Assembly: GCF_019900845.1 (NCBI RefSeq)
Contig: NZ_CP074570.1
Location: 1,240,001-1,304,000 of the forward strand
Direction of reading: 5' to 3'
Source: Paraneptunicella aestuarii
Lineage (GTDB): Bacteria > Pseudomonadota > Gammaproteobacteria > Enterobacterales > Alteromonadaceae
Length of the DNA stretch: 64,000 bases
This document shows positions 1,193 through 53,011 of this stretch, piece by piece. A program made the translations under genes and the position numbers. A model generated the notes under the pieces. That model made no database searches. It was not told where the DNA came from and saw only the letters and a program-made list of their open reading frames with translations. Each line of letters starts with the position of its first letter. Position 1 is the stretch's first letter.

Positions 1193-3805
1193 GTGTTAGA
1201 AGCTTATCGTAAACACGTAGAAGAGCGTGCTGCGGAGGGGATCCCGCCCAAGCCACTCAGCGCAGAACAGGTTGCTGATCTGGTTGAGTTGCTGAAAGCT
1301 CCACCAGCAGGCGAAGAAGATTTTCTGTTGGAATTATTGTCTGACCGTGTACCTCCGGGCGTAGACGAAGCCGCTTATGTAAAAGCTGGATTTTTGACTG
1401 CAATCACCAAAGGTGAAGCGACGTCTCCAGTTGTTTCTAAAGAAGCTGCGGTTCAGCTTCTGGGTAATATGCACGGTGGCTACAACATCGCCACTTTGAT
1501 CGAATTGCTTGATGATGCCGATTTGGCTGAATTGGCAGCAGAAGAGTTGAAACACACTCTGTTGATGTTCGATTCTTTCCATGATGTTGAAGATAAAATG
1601 AAAGCGGGCAACAGCTACGCGAAAGACGTTATCGAATCATGGGCAGACGGCGAGTGGTTCACTAGCCGTCCTGAAATCCCTGAAAAGATTACTGCCACTG
1701 TATTTAAAGTGACAGGCGAAACCAACACTGACGATTTGTCTCCTGCTCCTGATGCATGGTCTCGCCCTGACATCCCGCTACATGCTCGTGCAATGTACAA
1801 GATGACTCGTGACGGTTTGACGCCTGAAACTCATGGTGAAGTGGGTCCTCTAGCTCAAATCGAAGAAGTGAAAGCAAAAGGCCATCCTGTTGCATTCGTG
1901 GGTGACGTTGTAGGTACGGGTTCTTCTCGTAAATCAGCGACTAACTCTGTGTTGTGGTTCTTCGGCGACGATTTGCCGGGCGTTCCTAACAAGCGTGGTG
2001 GCGGTATCTGTATCGGCGGCAAAGTTGCACCTATCTTCTTCAACACAATGGAAGATGCGGGCGCTTTGGTATTTGAAGCCGATGTAGAGCAAATGAACAT
2101 GGGCGATGTGATTGAGATCTTCCCATTGGAAGGCAAAATCACTAACGCTGACACTGGCGCTGTATTGGCTGAATACAGCTATAAGTCTGACGTTATTCTT
2201 GACGAAGTGCGTGCTGGTGGCCGTATTAACCTGATCATCGGTCGTGGTTTGACTGACAAAGCGCGTACCGCTTTGGGTCTTGGAACTTCTGATTTGTTCC
2301 GTAAGCCAGTACAACCAGAAGATTCTGGCAAAGGTTTCACCCTTGCTCAGAAAATGGTGGGTAAAGCCTGTGGCGTTGAAGGTATCCGCCCTGGTACTTA
2401 TTGCGAACCCAAGATGACCACTGTGGGTTCTCAGGATACCACTGGCCCAATGACTCGTGACGAGTTGAAAGATTTGGCGTGTTTGGGCTTCTCTGCGGAT
2501 TTGACCATGCAGTCATTCTGCCATACAGCCGCTTATCCCAAGCCGGTTGATATTGAGACTCAACACACCTTACCTGATTTTATTATGACTCGTGGTGGAG
2601 TGTCGTTGCGTCCTGGTGACGGTATCATTCATAGCTGGTTGAATCGTATGTTGTTGCCAGATACTGTTGGTACAGGTGGTGACTCTCATACACGTTTCCC
2701 ATTGGGTATTTCATTCCCTGCGGGTTCTGGCTTGGTTGCTTTTGCCGCTGCGACTGGCGTTATGCCATTGGATATGCCTGAATCCATTTTGGTGCGCTTT
2801 AAAGGTGAAATGCAGCCTGGTATCACTTTGCGTGATTTGGTACATGCGATTCCTTTGTATGCTATCAAGAAAGGTTTGTTGACGGTTGAGAAGAAAGGCA
2901 AGAAGAATGCTTTCTCTGGTCGTATCCTTGAAATTGAAGGTTTGGAAAACCTGACTGTTGAGCAAGCATTTGAATTGTCTGACGCATCTGCGGAGCGTTC
3001 TGCTGCTGGCTGTACTATCAAGCTGTCAGAAGAATCTATCTCTGAATATTTGCGTTCTAACATCACCATGTTGCGCTGGATGATCAACGAAGGTTATGGC
3101 GACCCACGTACTCTTGAGCGTCGCGCCAAGAAGATGGAAGCATGGTTGGCGAATCCTGAGTTGATGCAAGCTGATGCTGATGCAGAATACGAAGAAGTGA
3201 TCGAAATCGACCTTAACGAGATTAAAGAGCCAATCGTATGTTGCCCTAATGACCCTGATGATGCGAAAACATTGTCTGACGTTGCTGGTGACAAGGTTGA
3301 TGAAGTATTCATCGGTTCTTGTATGACTAACATCGGTCACTTCCGTGCTGCGGGTAAGTTGTTGGAAGCAAACAATAAGCCGTTAAACACTCGTTTGTGG
3401 ATGTCTCCTCCAACCAAAATGGATCAGGCACAGTTGATGGAAGAAGGTTACTTTAACATTTACGGTCGTGCGGGTGTTCGTACTGAAATGCCTGGATGTT
3501 CATTGTGTATGGGTAACCAGGCTCGTGTTGCTGCGGGTTCAACGGTACTTTCTACTTCTACTCGTAACTTCCCTAACCGTTTGGGCGATGGTGCCAATGT
3601 GTACCTGACTTCTGCGGAACTGGCATCAGTAGGTGCGATTTTGGGTAAATTGCCAACGGCTGCCGAGTACATGGAATATGCCAACAAGATCGATTCCATG
3701 AGCGGTGAAGTATTCAAGTACCTGAACTTCGACCAAATGCCTGACTTCAAGAAGGCGGAAGAAGCAGCGAAAGCTAACATTATTCCTACTTTGAACGTAG
3801 AGTAA
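1193..3805 (+). CDS. acnB: Aconitate hydratase B
   Basis: AcnB interconverts citrate and isocitrate through cis-aconitate in the TCA and glyoxylate cycles, and as apoprotein can bind mRNA. From the GTG start at 1193 the protein has 870 residues. The 4Fe-4S ligands fall at Cys710 (GSCMTN), Cys769 and Cys772 (PGCSLCMG), the same numbers as in the Escherichia coli enzyme, which supports this start over the upstream ATG at 1157. AAGAGGA at 1178-1184 gives good spacing to the GTG. Order: N-terminal HEAT-like domain (to about 160), swivel domain ([29 protein letters not shown]), then the catalytic Fe-S domains. It is monocistronic, ended by a strong terminator. Confidence 0.98.
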
Positions 3806-9050: not shown

Positions 9051-9249
9051 TTTCAATCAAGCTCTCATTATTTATGCATATTATTTGATTTATCTGGCTT
9101 GCCAAAAGCTTAGTATGGGAGCTACCAATGTGGGGTTTACCAATATGCTTTGCGTTCAAGAGCATAGTGATGAAGTTAGACTATTGAATAATATGCAAAA
9201 AGCATTGTGAATCTTATAGTCTATATCAAGACAATTGGACAGATATCCT

Positions 9250-43299: not shown

Positions 43300-44265
43300 C
43301 TATAGTCCTTTCTGGGGGCTTTTGAGACATTTTTCAATGGCGTCAAATAATTTGCCCGTAATGCTGATGTCGTAAGCCGCTTCGATCTCCTGAACACAGG
43401 TTGGGCTGGTAACATTGATCTCGGTGATCCTGTCGCCAATCACATCAAGGCCAATAAACAACAAGCCTTGAGCGCGTAAAACCGGGGCAACGGTTTCAGC
43501 CAGTTTTCGGTCGCTTTCAGAAATCGGTTGTGGACGCCCAGTACCGCCAGCCGCCAAATTGCCACGAGTTTCTCCAGCCGAAGGCAAGCGCGCCAGGCAA
43601 TAAGGCATGACTTCGCCATCAACGATCAGAATACGTTTGTCACCGTCTTTAATGGCTGGTAGGTATTCCTGAAACATGGCATAACGAGTGCCATGTTGAG
43701 TTAGTGTTTCGATGATAACGCCAAGGTTATTGCCGTCTGCTTTCACGCGAAAAATCGAAGCGCCGCCCATGCCGTCCAAAGGTTTGCAAATCATATCTGT
43801 ATGCTTGGCATGAAACTCACGAATAAGCTTGGCATTGCGCGTTACCAGCGTATCGGGAATGAGGTCAGGGAAAAACGAGGTGGCGAGCTTTTCATTAATA
43901 TCACGCAATGCCCGGGTTTTATTCACCACCAATGTGCCAAGGCTTTCCGCCAGTTCCAGCATTTGAGTGGCATACAGGAATTCACCATCAAATGGAGGAT
44001 CCTTACGCATTAAGATCACATCTAAACTGTCCAGGCCAATATGTTGGGCTTCGCCAAGGGTAAACCAGTTTTCGGGATCGCGTTTAACTGACAGAGAATG
44101 AGCGATGGCATTAGGATGACCGTTAATCAGATACAGCCCAGACATTTCAATATAATAGAGTTCATAGCCACGGCTTTGCGCTTGCAATAGCATAGCGAAG
44201 CTGGTGTCTTTTTTGATATTGATGGATTGAATAGGATCCATCACGATGCCAAGTTTGATGCTCAA
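43300..44265 (-). CDS. gshB: Glutathione synthase
   Basis: A 321-residue ATP-grasp enzyme joining gamma-glutamylcysteine and glycine. IKLGIVMDPIQSINIKKDTSFAML is the typical start. LMRKDPPFDGEFLYATQMLELAE (about 85-107), ICKPLDGMGGASIFRV (about 155-170) and the C-terminal GLLFIGLDVIGDRITEINVTSPTCVQEIE (about 268-296) are conserved. It follows rsmE by about 250 bases and precedes algH by about 50. Confidence 0.97.
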   Translation of the reverse strand: MSIKLGIVMDPIQSINIKKDTSFAMLLQAQSRGYELYYIEMSGLYLINGHPNAIAHSLSVKRDPENWFTLGEAQHIGLDSLDVILMRKDPPFDGEFLYATQMLELAESLGTLVVNKTRALRDINEKLATSFFPDLIPDTLVTRNAKLIREFHAKHTDMICKPLDGMGGASIFRVKADGNNLGVIIETLTQHGTRYAMFQEYLPAIKDGDKRILIVDGEVMPYCLARLPSAGETRGNLAAGGTGRPQPISESDRKLAETVAPVLRAQGLLFIGLDVIGDRITEINVTSPTCVQEIEAAYDISITGKLFDAIEKCLKSPQKGL

Positions 44266-44460
44266 GGTTTAATCCCCGTCAATTGCTTGATTGATAGTTG
44301 ATGATACAACGAAATGAACTTAAAGATTGGTGCAGGTTGATATTATTCAAGCGCCAAAGTGCCAGAAAAGATGTAACAAGATTCGATCCTGAGACGTCAT
44401 TTTAGATGTTATTTCCGGTTTGAGATTTTTAACGCTGTGCTTAAATCCAATCGTTAAAAT

Positions 44461-44483
44461 AAGCGTCATGAAGGCTGACGCTT
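44461..44483 (-). terminator. Probable terminator of rsmE
   Basis: AAGCGTCA (44461-44468) and TGACGCTT (44476-44483) form an 8-base perfect stem, 36 bases after the rsmE stop on the minus strand. The following T-rich stretch is short (ATTTTA). It may allow partial read-through into gshB. Confidence 0.55.
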
Positions 44484-44519
44484 AATCTTAATTTCGGTTT
44501 TTTCATTTCATTTCTGATT

Positions 44520-45248
44520 TTACAAATCGCCAAAATGACTTTGCAGTACGGTGATGGCTGCCAGAGCTGCGGTTTCTGTTCTTAGTACGCGAGGGCCAAG
44601 CAACGCTGCATTAAATCCGCTTTCACTACTTTGGTAGATTTCGTTATCCGACAAACCACCTTCTGGGCCTATGAGCAAACGGAAGCCATGCTGATTCGGT
44701 TTAAATTCACGTATGGTTTTTTCTGCTTTGGGATCCAGTGTCAGGCGTAATTGCTGGGTCGATTGGCTCAGCCATTCGTGCAGCGTAATCGCTTCGTGCA
44801 GTGTAGGAACCACATTCCTGCCACACTGTTCACACGCCGATGTAATCACTTTAAACCAGTGTTGTTGCTTCTTGTCCCAACGCTCTGCATTGAGCTTAAT
44901 TGGACAACGTTCAGTAATGATGGGCGTGATTTCTGTCACCCCCAATTCCACCGATTTTTGCAATACAAAGTCCATGCGCTCACCTTTGGAAATACCTTGT
45001 CCAAGGTGAATCGGTAAGGGAGATTCTACGCTCATAGTGAGCTGAGCTTCTATCAAGGCACTGGCTTGGCGCTTTGATTCCATCTGCAATGTTGCACTGT
45101 ATTCATTACCGTCCCCATTGAACAAAATAATGGGATGGCCTTCTTTTAGCCTTAATACTGTTAGTAAATGCTTACTTGCTTCTTGTGTTAGGTCAATCGT
45201 CTGGTCAACGATAATGCTGTTGGGATGAAAAATTCTGGGAATACGCAT
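44520..45248 (-). CDS. rsmE: 16S rRNA m3U1498 methyltransferase
   Basis: A 242-residue SPOUT methyltransferase. The N-terminal PUA-like part is followed by QGISKGERMDFVLQKSVELGVTEITPIITERC (about 88-119), a strong RsmE signature. The knotted S-adenosylmethionine site is LLIGPEGGLSDNEI (about 188-201) and LGPRVLRTETAALAAITVLQ (about 215-234). It methylates U1498 of 16S rRNA. It begins the operon with gshB, algH and ruvX. Confidence 0.96.
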   Translation of the reverse strand: MRIPRIFHPNSIIVDQTIDLTQEASKHLLTVLRLKEGHPIILFNGDGNEYSATLQMESKRQASALIEAQLTMSVESPLPIHLGQGISKGERMDFVLQKSVELGVTEITPIITERCPIKLNAERWDKKQQHWFKVITSACEQCGRNVVPTLHEAITLHEWLSQSTQQLRLTLDPKAEKTIREFKPNQHGFRLLIGPEGGLSDNEIYQSSESGFNAALLGPRVLRTETAALAAITVLQSHFGDL

Positions 45249-45439
45249 AACTGTCTACTTTTCCGTGCTGAACGCTTGCTGTTTAGGGGAACCTCTACTG
45301 ACCGAAAGTGGTGTAAAAATTGTGTCAAAACGCAACAAGTGTCTATATAACGGCGGGTAAAAATAATAAACTAAAACTCATTTTCGGATTGCTAATACTG
45401 TGGCACTCTTGCCCTTCATTGTAAATAGAGACGAGCACA

Positions 45440-46324
45440 ATGGAATACATTATTGAAGTTGACGGTTTGGCCAAGTCCTTTCAAGGAATGACCGCCGTTA
45501 ACCATATTAGTTTTAAAGTGAAAAAGGGTCAGTGCTTTGGTTTGTTAGGGCCAAATGGTGCTGGCAAGACCACAACCATTGAAATGCTGGAAGGCATTCT
45601 CCCCAAAGATGCAGGCACCATTAAATATCATGGTGAAGAGATGACCCGTGAAGCCTTGCATAAAATCGGTATTCAATTTCAGCATACAGCGTTGCAGGAT
45701 TTTCTGACCACGCGCGATACCTTGAAGCTGTTTGCGGCTTTTTATAATAACCCGGTTCCTGAAGCTGAGCTTATCAAGCTGTGCGACCTTCAAGAGTTTA
45801 TTGATCGTGACCATCGCAAATTATCGGGTGGTCAGCGTCAGAGATTATTATTGGCTCTAGCCTTGGTGAACGACCCCGATGTACTGTTCCTAGATGAACC
45901 AACTACCGGAATGGATCCTCATGCTCGTCGTAAGTTCTGGGACTTGATCAATGGCATTAAGCATCAGGGTAAAACCATTATTTTGACCACTCACTATATG
46001 GATGAAGCGGAATATCTGTGTGATGAAATCGTGATTATGGATAAGGGAGCTATTATTGAAAGCGGGCACCCCAATTCTTTATTGGCCAAGCACTTTACAG
46101 GTGCATTGATTCGTCTTGATCCTCAAGAATTGCCTGAATCTATTCATACACGTTATCAAGTTACCAGTACCGAAGGTTTCTGCGAATTTGCCACAGACAA
46201 TGTGCAACGTGCGATTCAAGAACTCACTTCTGAGAATATTTCTTTGGAGGGTATGCATATCAAGTCTGCCAACCTGGATGACTTGTTTTTGAAATTAACT
46301 GGCCAGCAGTTGGAGGAAGTCTAA
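45440..46324 (+). CDS. ABC transporter ATP-binding subunit (ABC-2 exporter)
   Basis: A 294-residue ATPase of the DrrA/CcmA/NodI-like group. Walker A is GLLGPNGAGKTTTIEML (about 34-50), the signature LSGGQRQRLLLALALV (about 126-141) and Walker B DVLFLDEPTTGMDPHARR (about 147-164), with H-loop LTTHYMDEAEYLCDE. The C-terminal accessory region ends DDLFLKLTG. It overlaps the permease gene by one base, so the two form an exporter. Substrate unknown. Confidence 0.93.
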   Translation: MEYIIEVDGLAKSFQGMTAVNHISFKVKKGQCFGLLGPNGAGKTTTIEMLEGILPKDAGTIKYHGEEMTREALHKIGIQFQHTALQDFLTTRDTLKLFAAFYNNPVPEAELIKLCDLQEFIDRDHRKLSGGQRQRLLLALALVNDPDVLFLDEPTTGMDPHARRKFWDLINGIKHQGKTIILTTHYMDEAEYLCDEIVIMDKGAIIESGHPNSLLAKHFTGALIRLDPQELPESIHTRYQVTSTEGFCEFATDNVQRAIQELTSENISLEGMHIKSANLDDLFLKLTGQQLEEV

Positions 46325-47382
46325 TGGGATCATTTCGTAGTGCCTGGAATCGCTTTTATGCCATGTTTAAGGCTCGAAATCTGGAGTTCTTCCGAGACAG
46401 AGGCTCACTTGCCTGGTCGATACTGTTTCCTATTGTGATTTTAGCGGGTATCGCTTTCGCTTTTGACGGCGATGGTCAAACCCAGTTTAAGATCGGCGTG
46501 ATGGACAGTGTTCCTGAACAAGCGAAAGCTGAGGGCGTAAGTAATAACGATGCCAAAACTAACTTCTATGGTTTGAAGTATCTGGAGTTTGTGGTTTATA
46601 ACGATTTGCAAAACGCACAGGAAAAAGTGCAAAAGCACGCCATAGATATCTTGATTGATCATCAGAGTAAACAATATTGGATTAACCAATCTTCACCGCA
46701 GGGTTATTTTGTTGAACAGCTTTTACTTGGGCATGACGACAACTATCAACGTGTGACCTTAGATGGTAAAGAAGTGCGTTATATCGACTGGTTGCTGCCC
46801 GGAATATTGGGCATGAACATGATGTTCAGTAGTTTGCTTGGCGTGTCTCATTCCATTGTGCGTTATCGTAAAAACTCGGTCTTAAAACGTTTGAAAGCGA
46901 CGCCCTTAAGAGCCATTGAGTTTGTGTTTGCTCAGATCATGTCACGCTTGTTCATTGTATTGGTGATGTCGGCTTTTGTTTTCGTAGTCTGCGATTTAAT
47001 GTTCGATTTCTACATGATTGGAAGCTATTTAGACCTGTTGGTCATTGGTGTTCTGGGTAGCTTATGTATGATTTCTCTTGGACTGCTGGTGGCAAGTCGT
47101 AGCCGAAGTGAAGAACTGACAGGCGGTATCATGAACGTGATCACCTGGCCTATGATGATCTTGTCTGGGGTGTGGTTTTCGCTGGAAGGTGCGCCAGAGG
47201 CTGTCGTTCAGTTATCACAGGTATTCCCTTTAACTCATGTGTTAAATGGTGCCAGAGCAATCATGACCGACGGCTCTTCGCTATGGGATCTGCAATTTGA
47301 AGTGGGATTGCTATTAGTGCTAACCGTTATTTTTATGACGCTATGTTCCTGGCTGTTCCGATGGGAAGGCGACGGGCGGTAG
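46324..47382 (+). CDS. ABC-2 type transporter permease
   Basis: A 352-residue membrane protein. A first helix (about 25-43) is followed by a soluble loop (about 45-150) and then five helices near 155-350, the ABC-2 layout. LLPGILGMNMMFSSLLGVSHSIVRYRKNSVLKRLKATPLRAIEFVFAQIMSRL (about 156-208) is typical of the family. It is coupled to the ATPase by a 1-base overlap and ended by a strong terminator. Confidence 0.92.
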   Translation: MGSFRSAWNRFYAMFKARNLEFFRDRGSLAWSILFPIVILAGIAFAFDGDGQTQFKIGVMDSVPEQAKAEGVSNNDAKTNFYGLKYLEFVVYNDLQNAQEKVQKHAIDILIDHQSKQYWINQSSPQGYFVEQLLLGHDDNYQRVTLDGKEVRYIDWLLPGILGMNMMFSSLLGVSHSIVRYRKNSVLKRLKATPLRAIEFVFAQIMSRLFIVLVMSAFVFVVCDLMFDFYMIGSYLDLLVIGVLGSLCMISLGLLVASRSRSEELTGGIMNVITWPMMILSGVWFSLEGAPEAVVQLSQVFPLTHVLNGARAIMTDGSSLWDLQFEVGLLLVLTVIFMTLCSWLFRWEGDGR

Positions 47383-47411
47383 TCTGTAAGTGGTGAAGAT
47401 GAATTTGCGAT

Positions 47412-47437
47412 AAGGGTAGCGGTTGCTACCCTTTTTT
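47412..47437 (+). terminator. Rho-independent terminator of the ABC exporter operon
   Basis: AAGGGTAGC (47412-47420) and GCTACCCTT (47425-47433) pair perfectly over a GGTT loop, with a T run to 47437. It marks the end of the core genome before the integron remnant. Confidence 0.92.
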
Positions 47438-47507
47438 AATTCTGTGCGTAAAGCATAAATTGGCACAAAGTTTAAAGTATAAGATGACCAACGTCGTGCG
47501 CAGGGTA

Positions 47508-47768
47508 AGCGAGCAATTTGTTGATAAAAATGAGAGCTCATAAGGCTTGGTTTTGTGTAGCTGCGCTTATTTTTTTCGACGGTTCAAACTTAGATGTAGC
47601 TCGATGGCTAAGGAATTGTTCAAGTTTGGTATTGAAGGTAGCTTTTGGATACTTCAAGTCATAAAGCAGAATAAAGCGCCTGAACCAAGCTAAATATGAT
47701 TTTTTAGTTTGCAAGCTATAATGCTTTATTAGCAACTATGTACGTACATATTTAATAAAAGGTGATAT
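47508..47768 (-). pseudogene. intI: Integron integrase (intI) remnant, N-terminal fragment
   Basis: Reading the minus strand from 47768: ISPFIKYVRT, a TAG stop (47736-47738), then LLIKHYSLQTKKSYLAWFRR and FILLYDLKYP, ending ISAATQNQAL, a TGA stop (47538-47540), then ALIFYQQ before similarity fades. This order matches the N-terminal DNA-binding domain of integron integrases (SPF..VR....KHYS..T...YL.W..RFI, then an STQNQAL-type helix). Two in-frame stops and an ATA where ATG is expected show decay. The catalytic domain is missing, because only about 125 bases remain before the upstream exporter. Its orientation, divergent from the cassette to its right, is that of a real integron. The family call is from motif memory. 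Confidence 0.8.
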
Positions 47769-48056
47769 TTAATATCTTTATTTGTTTTGTGATCTTTATT
47801 TTCCTCTTGTGCAAATCTGCTCGCATTCTGAATAAGTGGGGAGTTGTAAGTTTTTGATTTTAATAGAAGTGTAGTTTGAAGTCCAAATTCGCAGAGACCT
47901 ATATAAATTCCAATTCTCGCTTTCCCCAAACTGTCATATGAATAAGAGGCTAGCAATTCGATTTAACCTACTGCTAATATTGGAAAAAATATCATTTTTT
48001 GAATTTTTAGTATGGTGTTAAAAGTGGGCATGCTGGGGATTCGCAGTGATACACTG
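47769..48056 (+). other. AT-rich region between intI remnant and cassette, attI position
   Basis: In an integron the attI site lies between intI and the first cassette, which is this stretch. It ends ACACTGTTAGCACAAT at the cassette junction (GTTAGCAC begins at 48056). There is no attC-like hairpin here, which fits attI rather than a previous cassette. A frame on the minus strand (47729-47956) has no resemblance to known proteins and is probably not a gene. No promoter could be assigned with confidence. Confidence 0.5.
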
Positions 48057-48080
48057 TTAGCACAATGAGAAGGGAGGGGT

Positions 48081-49295
48081 ATGTCATACTCAGCACAGGT
48101 GTTTAGAATTTTGATTGCATCTCCTAGTGATGTAAGTCAAGAACGTGATATCGCAGTAAAAACTATCCAAGAGTGGAATGACTTAAATTCTTCGGAGCGA
48201 CAAATTGTTTTGTTGCCTCTTAGGTGGGAGACCCACTCCGCACCTGAATATGGAAAAAGGCCCCAAGAAATAATAAATCGTCAGGTGGTGGATCAATGCG
48301 ATCTTTTAGTTGGGGTATTCTGGACAAGAATAGGAAGTCCAACAGGTGTAGCGGATAGTGGAACGTTAGAGGAAATTGAGCGAGTTGCGAAAGATGGGAA
48401 GCCAGTGATGCTCTATTTTTCGAAGGCAAATCAAAACCCTGACGATATTGATTTGGATCAATTGAAAAGGCTAAGAGAATTCAAGTCTAAGACTTTTCCG
48501 AAAGCCTTAGTAGAGAATTACTCAAGCCAAGTCGAATTTAGGGATAAATTATCTAAACAACTTGAGATACAAATAAGGGGGCTTCTTGCAGAAAAAGGAA
48601 TAAAAGAAGAGTCAGACATGACGAGCCCGATAACTGATATACAGTTACATTTCTCAGACCCATCAACTGGGGCAGATCTTGGAGAGGAAATAGATTTAAC
48701 AGGTACCTACATTGAAGTAACGGATTATGATGATATTCCTGATTATGAGGAGGAGCAGGAAGTTAAGCGATCAAGATCTCGAAGTTCATTGTCACATATG
48801 ATTATCTCTTCACGCCATAGAGATAAAGACTACTACCGAGATAGGGTTAGGAGATTTGTTGATAATAATTTTAGATCGAGAATAAGATTTTGGCTAAAAA
48901 ATGTGGGAACGATTGGGGCAAGGGATGTATATATCGACCTTAAGGTGAAATCAAGTGGTTCTGGTCTGACTATATTCTCAGATCGCCAGATTGAGGACGA
49001 GAATGGGAACGTTTTTATTTTACCTAGTGGTGATAGTGAGCTAGAAGTGACTAAAGTAGATAGCGGTATATGGTCTAGTGCTATTGAGATGAGAGCTCTT
49101 CAGCCAAAAAGAGAAGTTAGCCCAAATAAGAAGATATCCCTAGGGGCTAAGGAAAGTTGCGAAATATCAGTAGAAGCAAACATATATGCAGATACACTAC
49201 CAGAGCCTATCTCAAAGACACTAAAGATTAACTATGAACTAAAGTTAGTTGAAGCCAGTTATAGAGAGATCTTGGAAGAGTTATCTAAAGAATAA
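48081..49295 (+). CDS. DUF4062 (TIR-like) protein on an integron cassette
   Basis: A 404-residue protein. Residues 1-150 form a DUF4062-type domain: VFRILIASPSDVSQERDIAV (about 7-26), the acidic WETHSAPEYGKRPQEIINRQ region and CDLLVGVFWTRIGSPTG (about 73-89) with SGTLEEIERV and GKPVMLYFS. This fold is related to TIR domains and turns up in signalling and antiphage proteins. Residues 180-404 are a second, beta-rich region that I do not recognise, after an acidic and Arg-Ser-rich linker (about 213-250). It starts 24 bases into the cassette, with GAGGGG before the ATG, and base composition is more AT-rich than its neighbours. The attC site follows 15 bases after the stop. Function inferred only as a possible defence effector. 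Confidence 0.8.
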   Translation: MSYSAQVFRILIASPSDVSQERDIAVKTIQEWNDLNSSERQIVLLPLRWETHSAPEYGKRPQEIINRQVVDQCDLLVGVFWTRIGSPTGVADSGTLEEIERVAKDGKPVMLYFSKANQNPDDIDLDQLKRLREFKSKTFPKALVENYSSQVEFRDKLSKQLEIQIRGLLAEKGIKEESDMTSPITDIQLHFSDPSTGADLGEEIDLTGTYIEVTDYDDIPDYEEEQEVKRSRSRSSLSHMIISSRHRDKDYYRDRVRRFVDNNFRSRIRFWLKNVGTIGARDVYIDLKVKSSGSGLTIFSDRQIEDENGNVFILPSGDSELEVTKVDSGIWSSAIEMRALQPKREVSPNKKISLGAKESCEISVEANIYADTLPEPISKTLKINYELKLVEASYREILEELSKE

Positions 49296-49310
49296 CGAAG
49301 TAAATTATTG

Positions 49311-49419
49311 TGCTAACAATTGGCTTTAGAGGGACTTGCTCTCCGCGGTGTTTCGTTTGTGGCGAATGCCACAAGCCTCACACCGCTCCGGCAAGCCCCT
49401 CAGCCTGAGCGTTAGCACA
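49311..49419 (+). repeat. attC recombination site of the cassette
   Basis: A 109-base imperfect palindrome bounded by GTGCTAAC (49311-49318) and GTTAGCAC (49412-49419). Inside, AGAGGGACTTGC pairs with GCAAGCCCCTC with a shift, CCGCGGTGT with ACACCGC, and GTGGC with GCCAC at the tip. The opening resembles the start of Vibrio-type attC repeats (TAACAA..GGC..AGAGGG). The sequence GTTAGCACAAT at 49412 recurs at 48056, the left end of the cassette, so the cassette (about 48057-49412, 1356 bases) looks like a canonical insertion at G|TT. Confidence 0.85.
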
Positions 49420-49518
49420 ATAAAGGAAACATCAGTCGAAGCGGAAAGTGCATCAATAATTAAATGCCCCTTCCTCATCAACGGAATTAACGGACAACTT
49501 ATTCTTTTATGCACAATC

Positions 49519-50328
49519 CTATTGGCAGTTAGGTTTCACTGGCGCTGCTTTGTAATAAGAATTTGCTTGCGGCATATGTTGCTGTAATTGCTCCATTCGC
49601 GTACCGGGAGATGGGTGAGTAGAAAGCAGCTCAGGAGGGCGATTACCTTCGCTAGCCTTCTCCATATTCTTCCAAAGTTCAACTGACTGCTCGGGTTTAA
49701 ACCCGGCTTTTGCCATTAGATCCAAACCAATTATGTCAGCTTCTGACTCGTGAGTACGGCTAAAAGGAAGTTGTACGCCCACTTGCACGCCAAGTCCAAT
49801 GGCCGACATAATCTCCTTGCTGTGACCTACCTGATTCGATTGCAGTATCTGGTTGGTCACTTGCATGCCCACATTAATCAGTGTGCCAGAAGACATGCGC
49901 TCATTACCGTGATCAGCAATAACGTGACCGACTTCGTGCCCAATAACCGCAGCTAATTGATGTTGGTTTTTAGCGACTTTTAATAAGCCGGTATAAACGC
50001 CTATTTTGCCACCGGGCAGTGCAAAGGCATTCACTTGATCATCTTCAAATACCACCACTTCCCATTCGCCGGAATAAACACTTTTTGGTACTTGAGCGGT
50101 AATGTGTTTGGCAACGCAGCTTACATAGGCGTTTTGGGTTTTAACGGCTGACGGTTTGCCTTCGGTTTTCATGGTGTCGAAGGCTTGTTGCCCCATGCCA
50201 ATCATTTGGCTGCTGGAATAGAGTTTTAACTGGTTTCTGCCGGTTGGTGATTTGGCGCAAGACACAATACCAACAGAACTAACGATAAAAGCGAAACAAC
50301 AAACTAACTTTAATGTGCGATTGGACAT
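49519..50328 (-). CDS. M48 family metalloprotease, lipoprotein (LoiP/YcaL-like)
   Basis: From ATG 50328 (AAGAGG at good spacing) this is a 269-residue lipoprotein: signal peptide with lipobox ending VSC (about residue 24). The zinc motif HEVGHVIADH (HExxH) is at about 131-140, and the third ligand Glu lies in SRTHESEADIIGLDLM (about 192-207). Then HPSPGTRMEQL closes the M48 fold. It probably degrades misfolded envelope proteins at the outer membrane. It is convergent with the integron cassette and begins a stretch of core genes. Confidence 0.93.
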   Translation of the reverse strand: MSNRTLKLVCCFAFIVSSVGIVSCAKSPTGRNQLKLYSSSQMIGMGQQAFDTMKTEGKPSAVKTQNAYVSCVAKHITAQVPKSVYSGEWEVVVFEDDQVNAFALPGGKIGVYTGLLKVAKNQHQLAAVIGHEVGHVIADHGNERMSSGTLINVGMQVTNQILQSNQVGHSKEIMSAIGLGVQVGVQLPFSRTHESEADIIGLDLMAKAGFKPEQSVELWKNMEKASEGNRPPELLSTHPSPGTRMEQLQQHMPQANSYYKAAPVKPNCQ

Positions 50329-50475
50329 GCTATTCATCCTCTTACTGTGCCCAGGGAAATTCCGTAGATTAATAATAGTCGCTAATGAGTCGAATTCATT
50401 TGAAATTGAAAGGTTTATTTAAGGCTTGCTGCATTTCTATCTGGAAAAAAGAGCAAGCCTTGACGGCAGCGCTGT

Positions 50476-50877
50476 CTATTCTTCGATGATCTCAAAGCTA
50501 TGAGTTATCTCGACAGATTTACCCAACATGATGGACAAAGAGCAATATTTGTCGGCAGACAAATTGACCGCTCTTTCAACATGTTTTTCAGAAATTCCTT
50601 TGCCGCGAACAATAAAGTGCAAGTGCATGGTTTTAAACACCGCCGGAACCGCATCGACACGCTCGGCTTCCAGTTTTACTTCAACGCCGGTGACTTCCTG
50701 TTTCGCTTTTTCCAGAATATTAACTACATCGATAGAAGAGCAGCTTCCTGTGGCCATTAACACCATTTCCATGGGGGTAGCAGACACTTTCTTCTGACCG
50801 TCCAGAAGCACCTTGTTGCCGTTTTCCGTTGTTCCTTCAAAAAGTAAATCGTGTTGCCATTTCACTGTTGCTTGCAT
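50476..50877 (-). CDS. OsmC family protein (YhfA type)
   Basis: A 133-residue OsmC/Ohr-fold protein: VLLDGQKKVSATPMEMVLMATGSCSSIDVVNILEKAK (about 22-58) contains the N-terminal Cys of the family, and the C-terminal KYCSLSIMLGKSVEITHSFEI (about 109-129) the second Cys. The pair typically reduces peroxides. YhfA-like members are cytoplasmic with poorly known substrates. It is on the minus strand, alone. Confidence 0.9.
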   Translation of the reverse strand: MQATVKWQHDLLFEGTTENGNKVLLDGQKKVSATPMEMVLMATGSCSSIDVVNILEKAKQEVTGVEVKLEAERVDAVPAVFKTMHLHFIVRGKGISEKHVERAVNLSADKYCSLSIMLGKSVEITHSFEIIEE

Positions 50878-51313
50878 GAGAAAATCCTGCGTTCTAATTT
50901 TTTATTGGTTAATGGAAAAATTGGGCTGAATGCATTTACCCAATAGATAAACACCAGAATCATATCCCCAAAAGGCTCATTAAGGGAATGAGTTGAAGCT
51001 GTTTTGCTGAGCAATTCCCTGTAAACCTATCAGGTTAAATGTTTACAGCAATGAAAAGTGCAGCTTCACAAATGTGAATATGTTGATTCAGAATATAATT
51101 TATGTGCCGATATTTTTGGGTAAGTTAGATGCCAATTGCAGGTAATTTAATGCTGTTTTCCTGATTTTTGCGCATATTTTGTGAGTTAACTTGCCAAGCA
51201 TATATTCCATGACTATACAGATATAGCAATGGCTTTATGATGGCGCTCAGATGTTGCAGATATGTCAGATGTTGACGTCAGGATCGAATTAATTATGCAA
51301 AGGATAAAGGTAT
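50878..51313. promoter_or_regulatory. Intergenic region with an inverted repeat, upstream of an exported protein
   Basis: A gap of 436 bases between divergent genes. CTGTAAAC (51019-51026) and GTTTACAG (51041-51048) are an 8-base inverted repeat that could form a hairpin or an operator. AAAGG precedes the downstream ATG at 51314. No coding frame seen. Confidence 0.45.
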
Positions 51314-52093
51314 ATGAAACAGGTTTTCTCATCGCTATTACTTCTAATATTTACTTCCTGGTTTTCGGCTTACGCTGATGAAATAGTCCCCGATTACACG
51401 AATCCCGTAGTGGGATTAATCGGCGCTAGTTCAGTCGACCCGGAAACATCTCCTTTTAACACAATCGGCCTTACTGCTTTAAATGGCTCTTCCTTTAGAG
51501 GCTTGGCTGACTATATGAAAGCGCGCAGTATTCATCAGGCCAAGGGTATTGTTTATCGCGAAGTAGCGGAAGCTGGGGCGACAACTAACGGCCAGAATGG
51601 TTATTTGAGTGTTCTGGAACAAGCTAAACGGTTAGTTGAACACACAACTACATGGAACGATGGTGTTCATCTAAAAGCGGCGGTTATCTTTCACTTTAAC
51701 GATTGTTTACATTCTATCGCTGGACTGTGTGATGAGCAGGATGTACTGAACATCACGGTTGCGAATGTAAGAGAAGCTATCGAGTATCTACAAGCTGCCA
51801 ATGTGAAAGTATTCATCACCAGATTGATCGATTATGATCGACTAGACTTGCCTTTGGTCGAAGAAATCTACTCTCAGATCTCACCGGGCTTTAAAGTGGC
51901 CTCAGAAGCTAACTACAATTTGTACAAATCCATTTATGAAACTGAAATGGAGCAATTAAACGGCGTTACCGTAATTGATGTTTGGCAGGGAATGGAACAT
52001 ATTGGTGACGGACTGCACGCTGACCACAGTTCCAAGATGCGAGCCTCGAAACGATTGCATCGAGCGTTACGACGCTATCTTCGAGCTCAATAA
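51314..52093 (+). CDS. Exported SGNH-hydrolase-like protein
   Basis: A 259-residue protein with a clear signal peptide (about 1-21, ending AYAD). The mature part has SGNH-like blocks: VVGLIGASSVDP (about 31-42; nucleophile Ser in the GASS block), IFHFNDCLH (about 124-132; the N block) and a C-terminal GDGLHADHSSKMRAS (about 235-249; Asp-x-x-His). This would make it a periplasmic or secreted lipase/esterase-like enzyme. The block spacing fits, but the call is from motifs only. It is a single gene just before the tRNA-Arg pair. Confidence 0.6.
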   Translation: MKQVFSSLLLLIFTSWFSAYADEIVPDYTNPVVGLIGASSVDPETSPFNTIGLTALNGSSFRGLADYMKARSIHQAKGIVYREVAEAGATTNGQNGYLSVLEQAKRLVEHTTTWNDGVHLKAAVIFHFNDCLHSIAGLCDEQDVLNITVANVREAIEYLQAANVKVFITRLIDYDRLDLPLVEEIYSQISPGFKVASEANYNLYKSIYETEMEQLNGVTVIDVWQGMEHIGDGLHADHSSKMRASKRLHRALRRYLRAQ

Positions 52094-52747: not shown

Positions 52748-53011
52748 ATGTCACAAGCAAAAACACAAACTTTAAGCCTTGGTGAGCACTGGAATGCCTT
52801 TATCGCCGCACAAATAGAAGATGGGCGCTATGCCTCAGCCAGTGAAGTAGTAAGGGATGCGCTACGCCTGATGGAAGAAAAACGTTCTGCTTCCAAGCTT
52901 GAGCAACTGCGTGCTGCTTTGCGTGAAGGTGAAGAAAGTGGTGATGCCGGTGTGTTTGATCTCGAAGCTATTAAACGTGAGGCGCTCAAGGAAATGGAAC
53001 TTTCAAAGTAA
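52748..53011 (+). CDS. parD: ParD-like antitoxin, module 1
   Basis: An 87-residue type II antitoxin. The ribbon-helix-helix N-terminus LSLGEHWNAFIAAQIEDGRYASASEVVRDALRLME (about 10-45) is a textbook ParD/CopG start, and the C-terminal tail is the toxin-binding part. It ends exactly where the toxin gene begins. It shares LSLGEHW, GRY.SASE.VRDALR and EE with the second ParD near 56.4 kb, so the two modules are related. Confidence 0.9.
   Translation: MSQAKTQTLSLGEHWNAFIAAQIEDGRYASASEVVRDALRLMEEKRSASKLEQLRAALREGEESGDAGVFDLEAIKREALKEMELSK

Follow-up and report, generated by a model that had tools for sequence, protein, structure and literature searches.

A probable chromosomal integron remnant retaining one DUF4062 gene cassette in Paraneptunicella aestuarii

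Between the genes for an ABC-2 exporter and an M48 peptidase, the chromosome of Paraneptunicella aestuarii contains what very probably remains of a chromosomal integron of the type found in its own lineage, with the integrase destroyed and one cassette left. The stretch of DNA that was analyzed, referred to here as the window, comprises 64,000 nucleotides (contig NZ_CP074570.1, positions 1,240,001 to 1,304,000), and coordinates are those of the window unless a genome or locus is named. A first-pass annotation made from the letters alone had read the locus as a decayed integron, and that reading was supported in substance. The locus contained the following features.

46324..47382, plus strand: gene for the ABC-2 exporter membrane protein, the left chromosomal neighbor (Pfam ABC2_membrane_3, E 6.5e-30)
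47412..47433, plus strand: terminator-like hairpin 3' of the exporter gene (9-bp stem and T tail; a consensus match only)
47517..47759, minus strand: intI relic (TIGR02249, Pfam, and DNA alignment with other copies)
47883..48056, no strand assigned: attI and leader (three-locus alignment of genus integrons)
48057..49411, plus strand: gene cassette of 1,355 bp, beginning with TTAGCACAAT at the attI junction, its last base being the G of the attC R' box
48081..49295, plus strand: cassette open reading frame of 404 amino acids, DUF4062 (PF13271, PADLOC PDC-S60)
49311..49417, plus strand: attC from R'' TGCTAAC to R' GTTAGCA, 107 bp (fold and covariance model)
49412..49518, no strand assigned: right-hand remnant 3' of the attC crossover, beginning with TTAGCACAATAA (sequence)
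49519..50337, minus strand: M48 peptidase gene, the right chromosomal neighbor (Pfam Peptidase_M48, E 5.8e-40)

The inserted DNA probably begins on the left between the terminator-like hairpin and about 47517. On the right, the array seems to have been cut after the attC junction, so that further cassettes may have been lost there, and the right-hand remnant, which breaks off ahead of the M48 gene, may represent the opening part of a second cassette now lost or some other DNA from the end of the array. The description of the locus in the annotation as frozen with a single cassette therefore holds for the one cassette that is present but not necessarily for the original state. No direct repeats of at least 7 nt were common to the left and right flanks of the insert. 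Beyond the M48 gene, an 87-amino-acid open reading frame at 52748-53011 on the plus strand reads by eye as a ParD-type antitoxin.

A truncated integrase gene adjoins an attI site

A 65-amino-acid minus-strand frame at 47541-47735 matched Phage_int_SAM_4 above the cut-off in a Pfam search (E 8.5e-9) and positions 9-68 of the 315-position integron integrase model TIGR02249 (E 8.4e-10), the 38.5 bits of the latter match lying far beneath the whole-protein cut-off of 265 bits. When TIGR02249 was searched against the whole genome, the match extended over 47517-47759, corresponding to profile positions 1-76 of 315 and enclosing one TGA and one TAG. The relic was 62% identical over 63 amino acids to the integrase of a congener genome (G001). 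Its start region did not align; insertions of 10 nt and 5 nt, absent from both other aligned intI copies, shift the frame and then restore it, the TGA comes next, and DNA similarity to the other copies stops after about 76 codons in the alignment. No full catalytic IntI is present at the locus, which retains the N-terminal quarter, the catalytic three quarters being gone. The annotation had described the fragment as the N-terminal domain of an integron integrase, interrupted by an in-frame TAG and TGA and devoid of a start and a catalytic domain, and had proposed similarity to IntI proteins as the check; all of this was borne out. The P. aestuarii genome (G000) contained no TIGR02249 match above the cut-off, an absence that is the exception in the family, since 215 of 295 genomes contained an integrase above it. 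Among the GTDB species contigs, 126 stretches fit the pattern of the intI fragment, and none was confirmed as a relative.

The leader that separates the relic from the cassette was 75-80% identical to those of two other genus integrons over 175-177 columns, whereas beyond CTG^TTA (48056/48057), on the cassette side, identity fell to 45-52% over 29-31 columns. Such identity on the attI side with a drop at CTG^TTA is the mark of a common attI followed by different first cassettes, and we regard the window leader, placed upstream of intI as in an integron, as a genuine attI. The attI-type junction proposed by the annotation is thus upheld by about 175 columns common to the three loci. Promoter-like sites that might serve as Pc numbered five versus 5.8 expected, none of them above chance and the stretch no richer in them than shuffled sequence. 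Just ahead of the intI gene of G001 lies CTGTATATACATACAG (L080 10613-10628), which we take to resemble a LexA (SOS) box; this stretch is missing or altered in the window copy at about 47735-47760.

The cassette ends in a foldable attC site

The word GTTAGCACAAT is found exactly at 48056-48066 and 49411-49421 on the plus strand and in inverted form at 49307-49317. There was no further exact copy in the window, and allowing one mismatch gave 5 matches versus 1.45 expected. The annotation had noted the repeats at both ends of the cassette, and the exact copies confirmed them, with the inverted copy in addition. The inverted arms (49305-49317 and 49411-49423) are 13 nt long and 100% complementary, and the bottom strand of 49307-49421 folds into a hairpin of -36.4 kcal/mol (z -7.8) that none of 200 shuffles equaled. 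The top strand of the same interval gave -34.6 kcal/mol (z -7.3, again 0 of 200), in contrast to the first 107 bases of the cassette, which lacked a fold (z +1.7). A 12-nt word is common to the start of the cassette and the inverted R'' side, a match found in 0 of 200 mononucleotide shuffles. The site has the complementary R'' and R' boxes of an attC (TGCTAAC and GTTAGCA, with AAC...GTT) and forms an imperfect hairpin; its outer boxes deviate from the textbook consensus RYYYAAC/GTTRRRY, the R' box being GTTAGCA, and a strict GTTRRRY/RYYYAAC scan missed 49311-49417, while a relaxed scan found it. The "109-base attC hairpin" of the annotation is refined to an attC of 107 bp, counted between the outer R boxes. 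As the annotation had described, the attC-bearing cassette is oriented away from intI, its open reading frame (plus strand) running opposite to the relic (minus strand); with an open frame and a foldable attC, the cassette is intact.

A covariance model (R1) was built from 22 attC sites of integrons in other genera of the family, with the window's own site left out. The candidates came from 18 of 20 family stretches, L135 and L139 being too short to scan; these 18 yielded 28 attC candidates, from which 5 without TAACAA/GCGTTA and then one misaligned row were dropped. The scan returned 31 candidates on the opposite strand as well, hairpins being symmetric, so that the candidate scan by itself is no proof of strand. 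Applied to every position of the window, R1 placed 49311-49417 first among the 21 matches listed (19.6 bits, E 0.03), the second-best match having an E of 0.34. Genome-wide, where 150 of 1468 candidates were scored, the site was absent from the 7 matches listed at E <= 1, which counts against a strong attC claim from R1 alone, and an E of 0.03 in 64 kb is moderate support. The covariance check suggested by the annotation was in this way positive within the window but not across the genome. An Rfam scan of 44000-52000 at E <= 1 gave no match.

The annotation would have been refuted by the same repeats in non-cassette contexts across the genome; no second copy of the attC sequence was found in P. 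aestuarii, the next matches having E 1.04 or weaker. A DNA search of 290 family genomes found, besides the window's own, a stretch similar to the site only in G032, 82% identical over 101 bases. This stretch (L120 8388-8494) lies directly 3' of a small gene, on whose other side is a clear attC (E 8.7e-6). Its fold was shuffle-like (z +0.4, equaled by 125 of 200 shuffles) and R1 gave only E 2.4, for which reasons it is at best a worn attC; its position behind a gene fits an attC at a cassette end. The small gene, between the worn attC and the clear one (9174-9245) within L120 8388-9245, adjoins a gene that by eye encodes an ATP-binding, OLD-nuclease-like protein. Among 72,556 plasmids, one, from Candidatus Tenderia electrophaga, matched the site in part (82% over 55% of the query); R1 did not list this stretch but found another attC at a distance of about 4.7 kb (E 1.3e-6). 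The phage search gave no match to the attC.

Among the candidates scored genome-wide, R1 found six chromosomal attC matches at E 8.1e-9 to 0.003, located at 3278800-3278900 and 4462988-4463090 on the minus strand and at 1998995-1999095, 1999877-1999937, 981897-981996, and 4757904-4757994 on the plus strand. A weak further match lies at 3700306 (E 0.15). This scatter in a genome without an integrase above the cut-off suggests attG-type insertion or broken-up arrays. At one site (L149, reverse-complemented, 2671-3701), a lone cassette carries a DUF2971 gene (E 9.4e-13) and begins with a word that matches the R'' box at 11 of 11 positions; its right-hand neighbor had 10 partial matches in G001 and so may be a mobile element. 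At another (L154 650-2923), a gene with a TIR domain (TIR_2, E 1.5e-28), whose start resembles that of a cassette at 9 of 11 positions, lies ahead of the weak attC (E 0.15), with ORFs that look by eye like transposase genes in between; this is possibly a second TIR-type cassette gene of the same genome.

Damaged platforms in the genus and the locus in relatives

The P. aestuarii genome contained a second intI fragment at 3,450,154, with two TGA codons in the matched stretch. In this region, which is syntenic with the integron of G001, a tRNA-Met gene lies beyond the cassette-side genes; the synteny identifies the tRNA-Met locus as a site common to both genus genomes and the window copy as additional, the latter being one of two wrecked platforms in the genome. 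The tRNA-side intI (L018 5816-6331) bears its own damage, with different stops and a different end of homology, and R1 listed no attC in that locus at E <= 5. The tRNA-Met integron of G001 contains three attC sites in a row (R1 E 6.6e-11, 1.1e-4, and 1.6e-4) and an intI of nearly full length that is interrupted by one TGA and, when read through, scored 397.6 bits versus the 265-bit cut-off. A second intI fragment in G001, with one TAA, is cut by a contig end (G001:C76; L081 10147-10686); it is 94% identical to the first over 541 bp, which suggests that the platform region was recently duplicated in that genome. All four intI copies in the two genus genomes (G000 and G001) are damaged, and neither genome contained a complete open integrase gene.

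Of 59 family genomes searched, 25, including P. aestuarii itself, contained a match to the exporter gene, and the M48 gene adjoins it in P. aestuarii and in 2 of the 24 others, G034 and G001, in which the matches are spaced about 40 bp and 658 bp apart, respectively. The 658-bp spacer of G001 had no DNA match to the insert. The annotation had proposed a search for relatives with an intact intI at this position; the two genomes in which the genes adjoin contain no integron there. Because both lack the insert, this lineage appears to have gained the integron piece by insertion, a polarity drawn from two relatives (n = 2).

Taken together as a course of events, a platform of intI and attI that carried one cassette or more would have come to lie between the exporter and M48 genes, presumably by duplication or movement of a genus integron. 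The integrase would then have been destroyed as its start region and catalytic three quarters were lost and stops and small insertions arose. With its integrase destroyed, the cell cannot gain or lose cassettes by its own means; given the open frame and foldable attC, a foreign integrase could in principle excise the cassette.

Three other accounts of the locus were weighed against an integron remnant. Scattered attC matches in the genome, together with the DUF2971 cassette whose start matches its R'' box at every position, are what would be expected if a lone cassette had been inserted into a chance (attG-type) site by an integrase elsewhere, the nearby intI fragment being coincidental. We consider this highly improbable, as about 175 columns of the DNA to the left of the cassette are homologous to two attI-intI leaders, and this DNA leads on into intI with the orientation and spacing of an integron. 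It is still harder to see the fragment as what is left of a XerC/D-like or phage integrase and the repeats as transposon ends. TIGR02249 does match other tyrosine recombinases (at E <= 0.001 in all 14 control genomes), but none of those matches exceeded the cut-off, whereas the G001 relative of the fragment exceeds this integron-specific value; furthermore, both of the insert proteins that were searched lacked a transposase match, and the hairpin has the layout of an attC and is the best R1 match in the window.

The third account concerns timing: the platform might have broken down only very recently and still be active in sister strains, which would make the wreck a strain-level event. The undamaged cassette open reading frame and attC are in keeping with a recent date, but the integrase gene has several separate lesions, the attI and intI parts diverge by 20-27% from the other copies, and 4 of 4 copies in two genus genomes are damaged, all of which makes a recent wreck unlikely.

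The cassette encodes a DUF4062 protein with relatives in distant phyla

The N-terminal part of the 404-amino-acid cassette protein matched PF13271 (DUF4062) barely above the cut-off (E 2.2e-5, 25 bits versus 24.7), and the PADLOC candidate PDC-S60 matched residues 6-193 with an E of 1.5e-32, which supports DUF4062. Family matches of the C-terminal region were all below threshold, and a weak match to nucleoside deoxyribosyltransferase (E 0.064) was likewise below the cut-off. In the SGTLEEIE region, Glu97 and Glu98 are invariant in 4 of 4 aligned proteins. We take this region to follow the GTxxE pattern of deoxyribosyltransferases, from which one of the two residues would presumably be catalytic. 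An AlphaFold model made from 4 sequences (mean pLDDT, 51) shows residues 187-392 mostly as strands with two helices (237-263), so the C-terminal region looks beta-rich in this low-confidence prediction. No PDB sequence matched at E <= 1.

A scan of GTDB species genomes, sensitive to close relatives only, found three relatives of the protein: 63% identical in a Nitrospirae metagenome-assembled genome (MAG) (L084), 54% in a Marinilabiliaceae genome (L085), and 49% in a Desulfuromonadales MAG (L086). The Nitrospirae relative is the first gene, about 170 bp from an intact 325-amino-acid IntI in the opposite direction (TIGR02249, 441.3 bits versus the 265-bit cut-off), the same arrangement as in the window. 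Its candidate attC stretch is in the expected place but weak (fold z -0.5, equaled by 55 of 200 shuffles; R1 E 0.38); the folds at the other two loci had z -0.6 (52 of 200 shuffles) for Marinilabiliaceae and z -2.6 (3 of 200) for Desulfuromonadales, and R1 listed nothing in either at E <= 5. Junction words were 8 nt in the Nitrospirae locus (6 of 200 shuffles) and 10 nt in the Marinilabiliaceae locus (1 of 200) and were at chance level in the Desulfuromonadales locus (48 of 200). As the attC folds and models of the relatives are weak, their reading as cassettes is based on the intact IntI beside the Nitrospirae gene and on the junction words; cassette status is firm for the Nitrospirae relative and likely for the Marinilabiliaceae one. 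A comparison with the Nitrospirae gene gave a dN of 0.31 and a dS that was not computable, hence no ratio. In other collections, 0 of 66 candidates from viral contigs were confirmed, 369 genomes drawn from the class contained only the window's own copy at E <= 1e-30, and among 188 plasmid records that matched the protein, none covered 80% of the query at a single place; in the 20 plasmid rows listed, the matches lay in the N-terminal part and reached no further than residue 221.

A possible role in phage defense

DUF4062 proteins are described in a 2026 preprint as TIR-like NADases with antiphage activity (PMC13174449). One of them, KpSwz, shields Escherichia coli from phages, requires E97 and an auxiliary domain, and is triggered by the phage portal protein, and the family is also represented in human TEP1 (PMC13174449). 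By analogy, the cassette product is probably a TIR-like enzyme of the antiphage kind. That it works as a phage-triggered TIR-like NADase, making this an abortive-infection cassette, has about even odds, the defense role being carried over from proteins with other auxiliary domains. Somewhat short of an even chance is the alternative that the gene has nothing to do with defense and encodes an enzyme of nucleoside or NAD metabolism, or is an orphan gene without a selected function. The deoxyribosyltransferase match and the subthreshold matches of the C-terminal region would suit that alternative, while the antiphage activity reported for DUF4062 NADases (PMC13174449), the PDC-S60 match, and the invariant Glu pair speak for defense.

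Our literature search, mostly of papers open without subscription, found none with both DUF4062 and integron, and the words "integron" and "cassette" are absent from the main text of the DUF4062 preprint (PMC13174449). We tentatively suggest, while giving it distinctly less than an even chance, that an unreported integron cassette family extends across distant phyla, consisting of a one-gene abortive-infection system in which a DUF4062 TIR-like NADase is joined to a new beta-rich sensor domain, and that the defense gene here has outlived the machine, a "fossil" of a mobile defense cassette becoming a fixed chromosomal immune gene. If the DUF4062 cassette does work in defense, it connects integrons with the same family of TIR-like NADases that is represented in human TEP1.

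Comparison with known systems

The locus adds another case to the broken intI genes and lone attC cassettes already well documented; the cassette is of more interest than the wreck, which is of a common kind. Nearly one third of intI genes were counted as pseudogenes and 20% of bacteria as having more than one integrase gene in a 2008 study (PMC2426708), and repeated inactivation of intI is reported in Xanthomonas (PMC12444791). As described in these two sources, pseudo-integrons share with the present locus an intI killed by stops, frameshifts, or deletion and cassettes that stay behind. The locus differs in that attI and one intact cassette lie at a second locus rather than the genus-common one and in that the catalytic three quarters of the gene are gone. 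In the terms of IntegronFinder, a lone attC without an integrase is a SALIN, and attC sites without an integrase form a CALIN (PMC12690207). As in these, there is a single attC at the locus with no functional IntI nearby, and no functional integrase was found in the genome. Here, in contrast to the SALIN and CALIN as defined there, the lone attC still adjoins attI and the intI relic, and the DNA therefore records where it came from. The locus illustrates how a lone attC cassette can arise: the platform dies, attI and attC remain readable, and one gene stays open. Since one genome contains attI, the relic, and another wrecked copy, it allows a comparison between the loss of the integrase and what became of the cassette.

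The cassette protein resembles Swarozyc (PMC13174449) in having an N-terminal DUF4062 with a conserved Glu region followed by a C-terminal part. The C-terminal half looks beta-rich in the low-confidence model here, whereas KpSwz as described has helical stalks and an HTH/winged auxiliary domain, and the DUF4062 gene of the window is carried as an integron cassette. Integron cassettes are established as carriers of phage defense (reviewed in PMC12409362, which cites Kieffer et al. 2025 and Darracq, Littner et al.), and the cassettes described there are likewise small, one-gene, and in first position beside attI. The cassette of P. aestuarii differs from them in that its platform is dead, its putative defense role is argued by analogy, and no named family is assigned to it.
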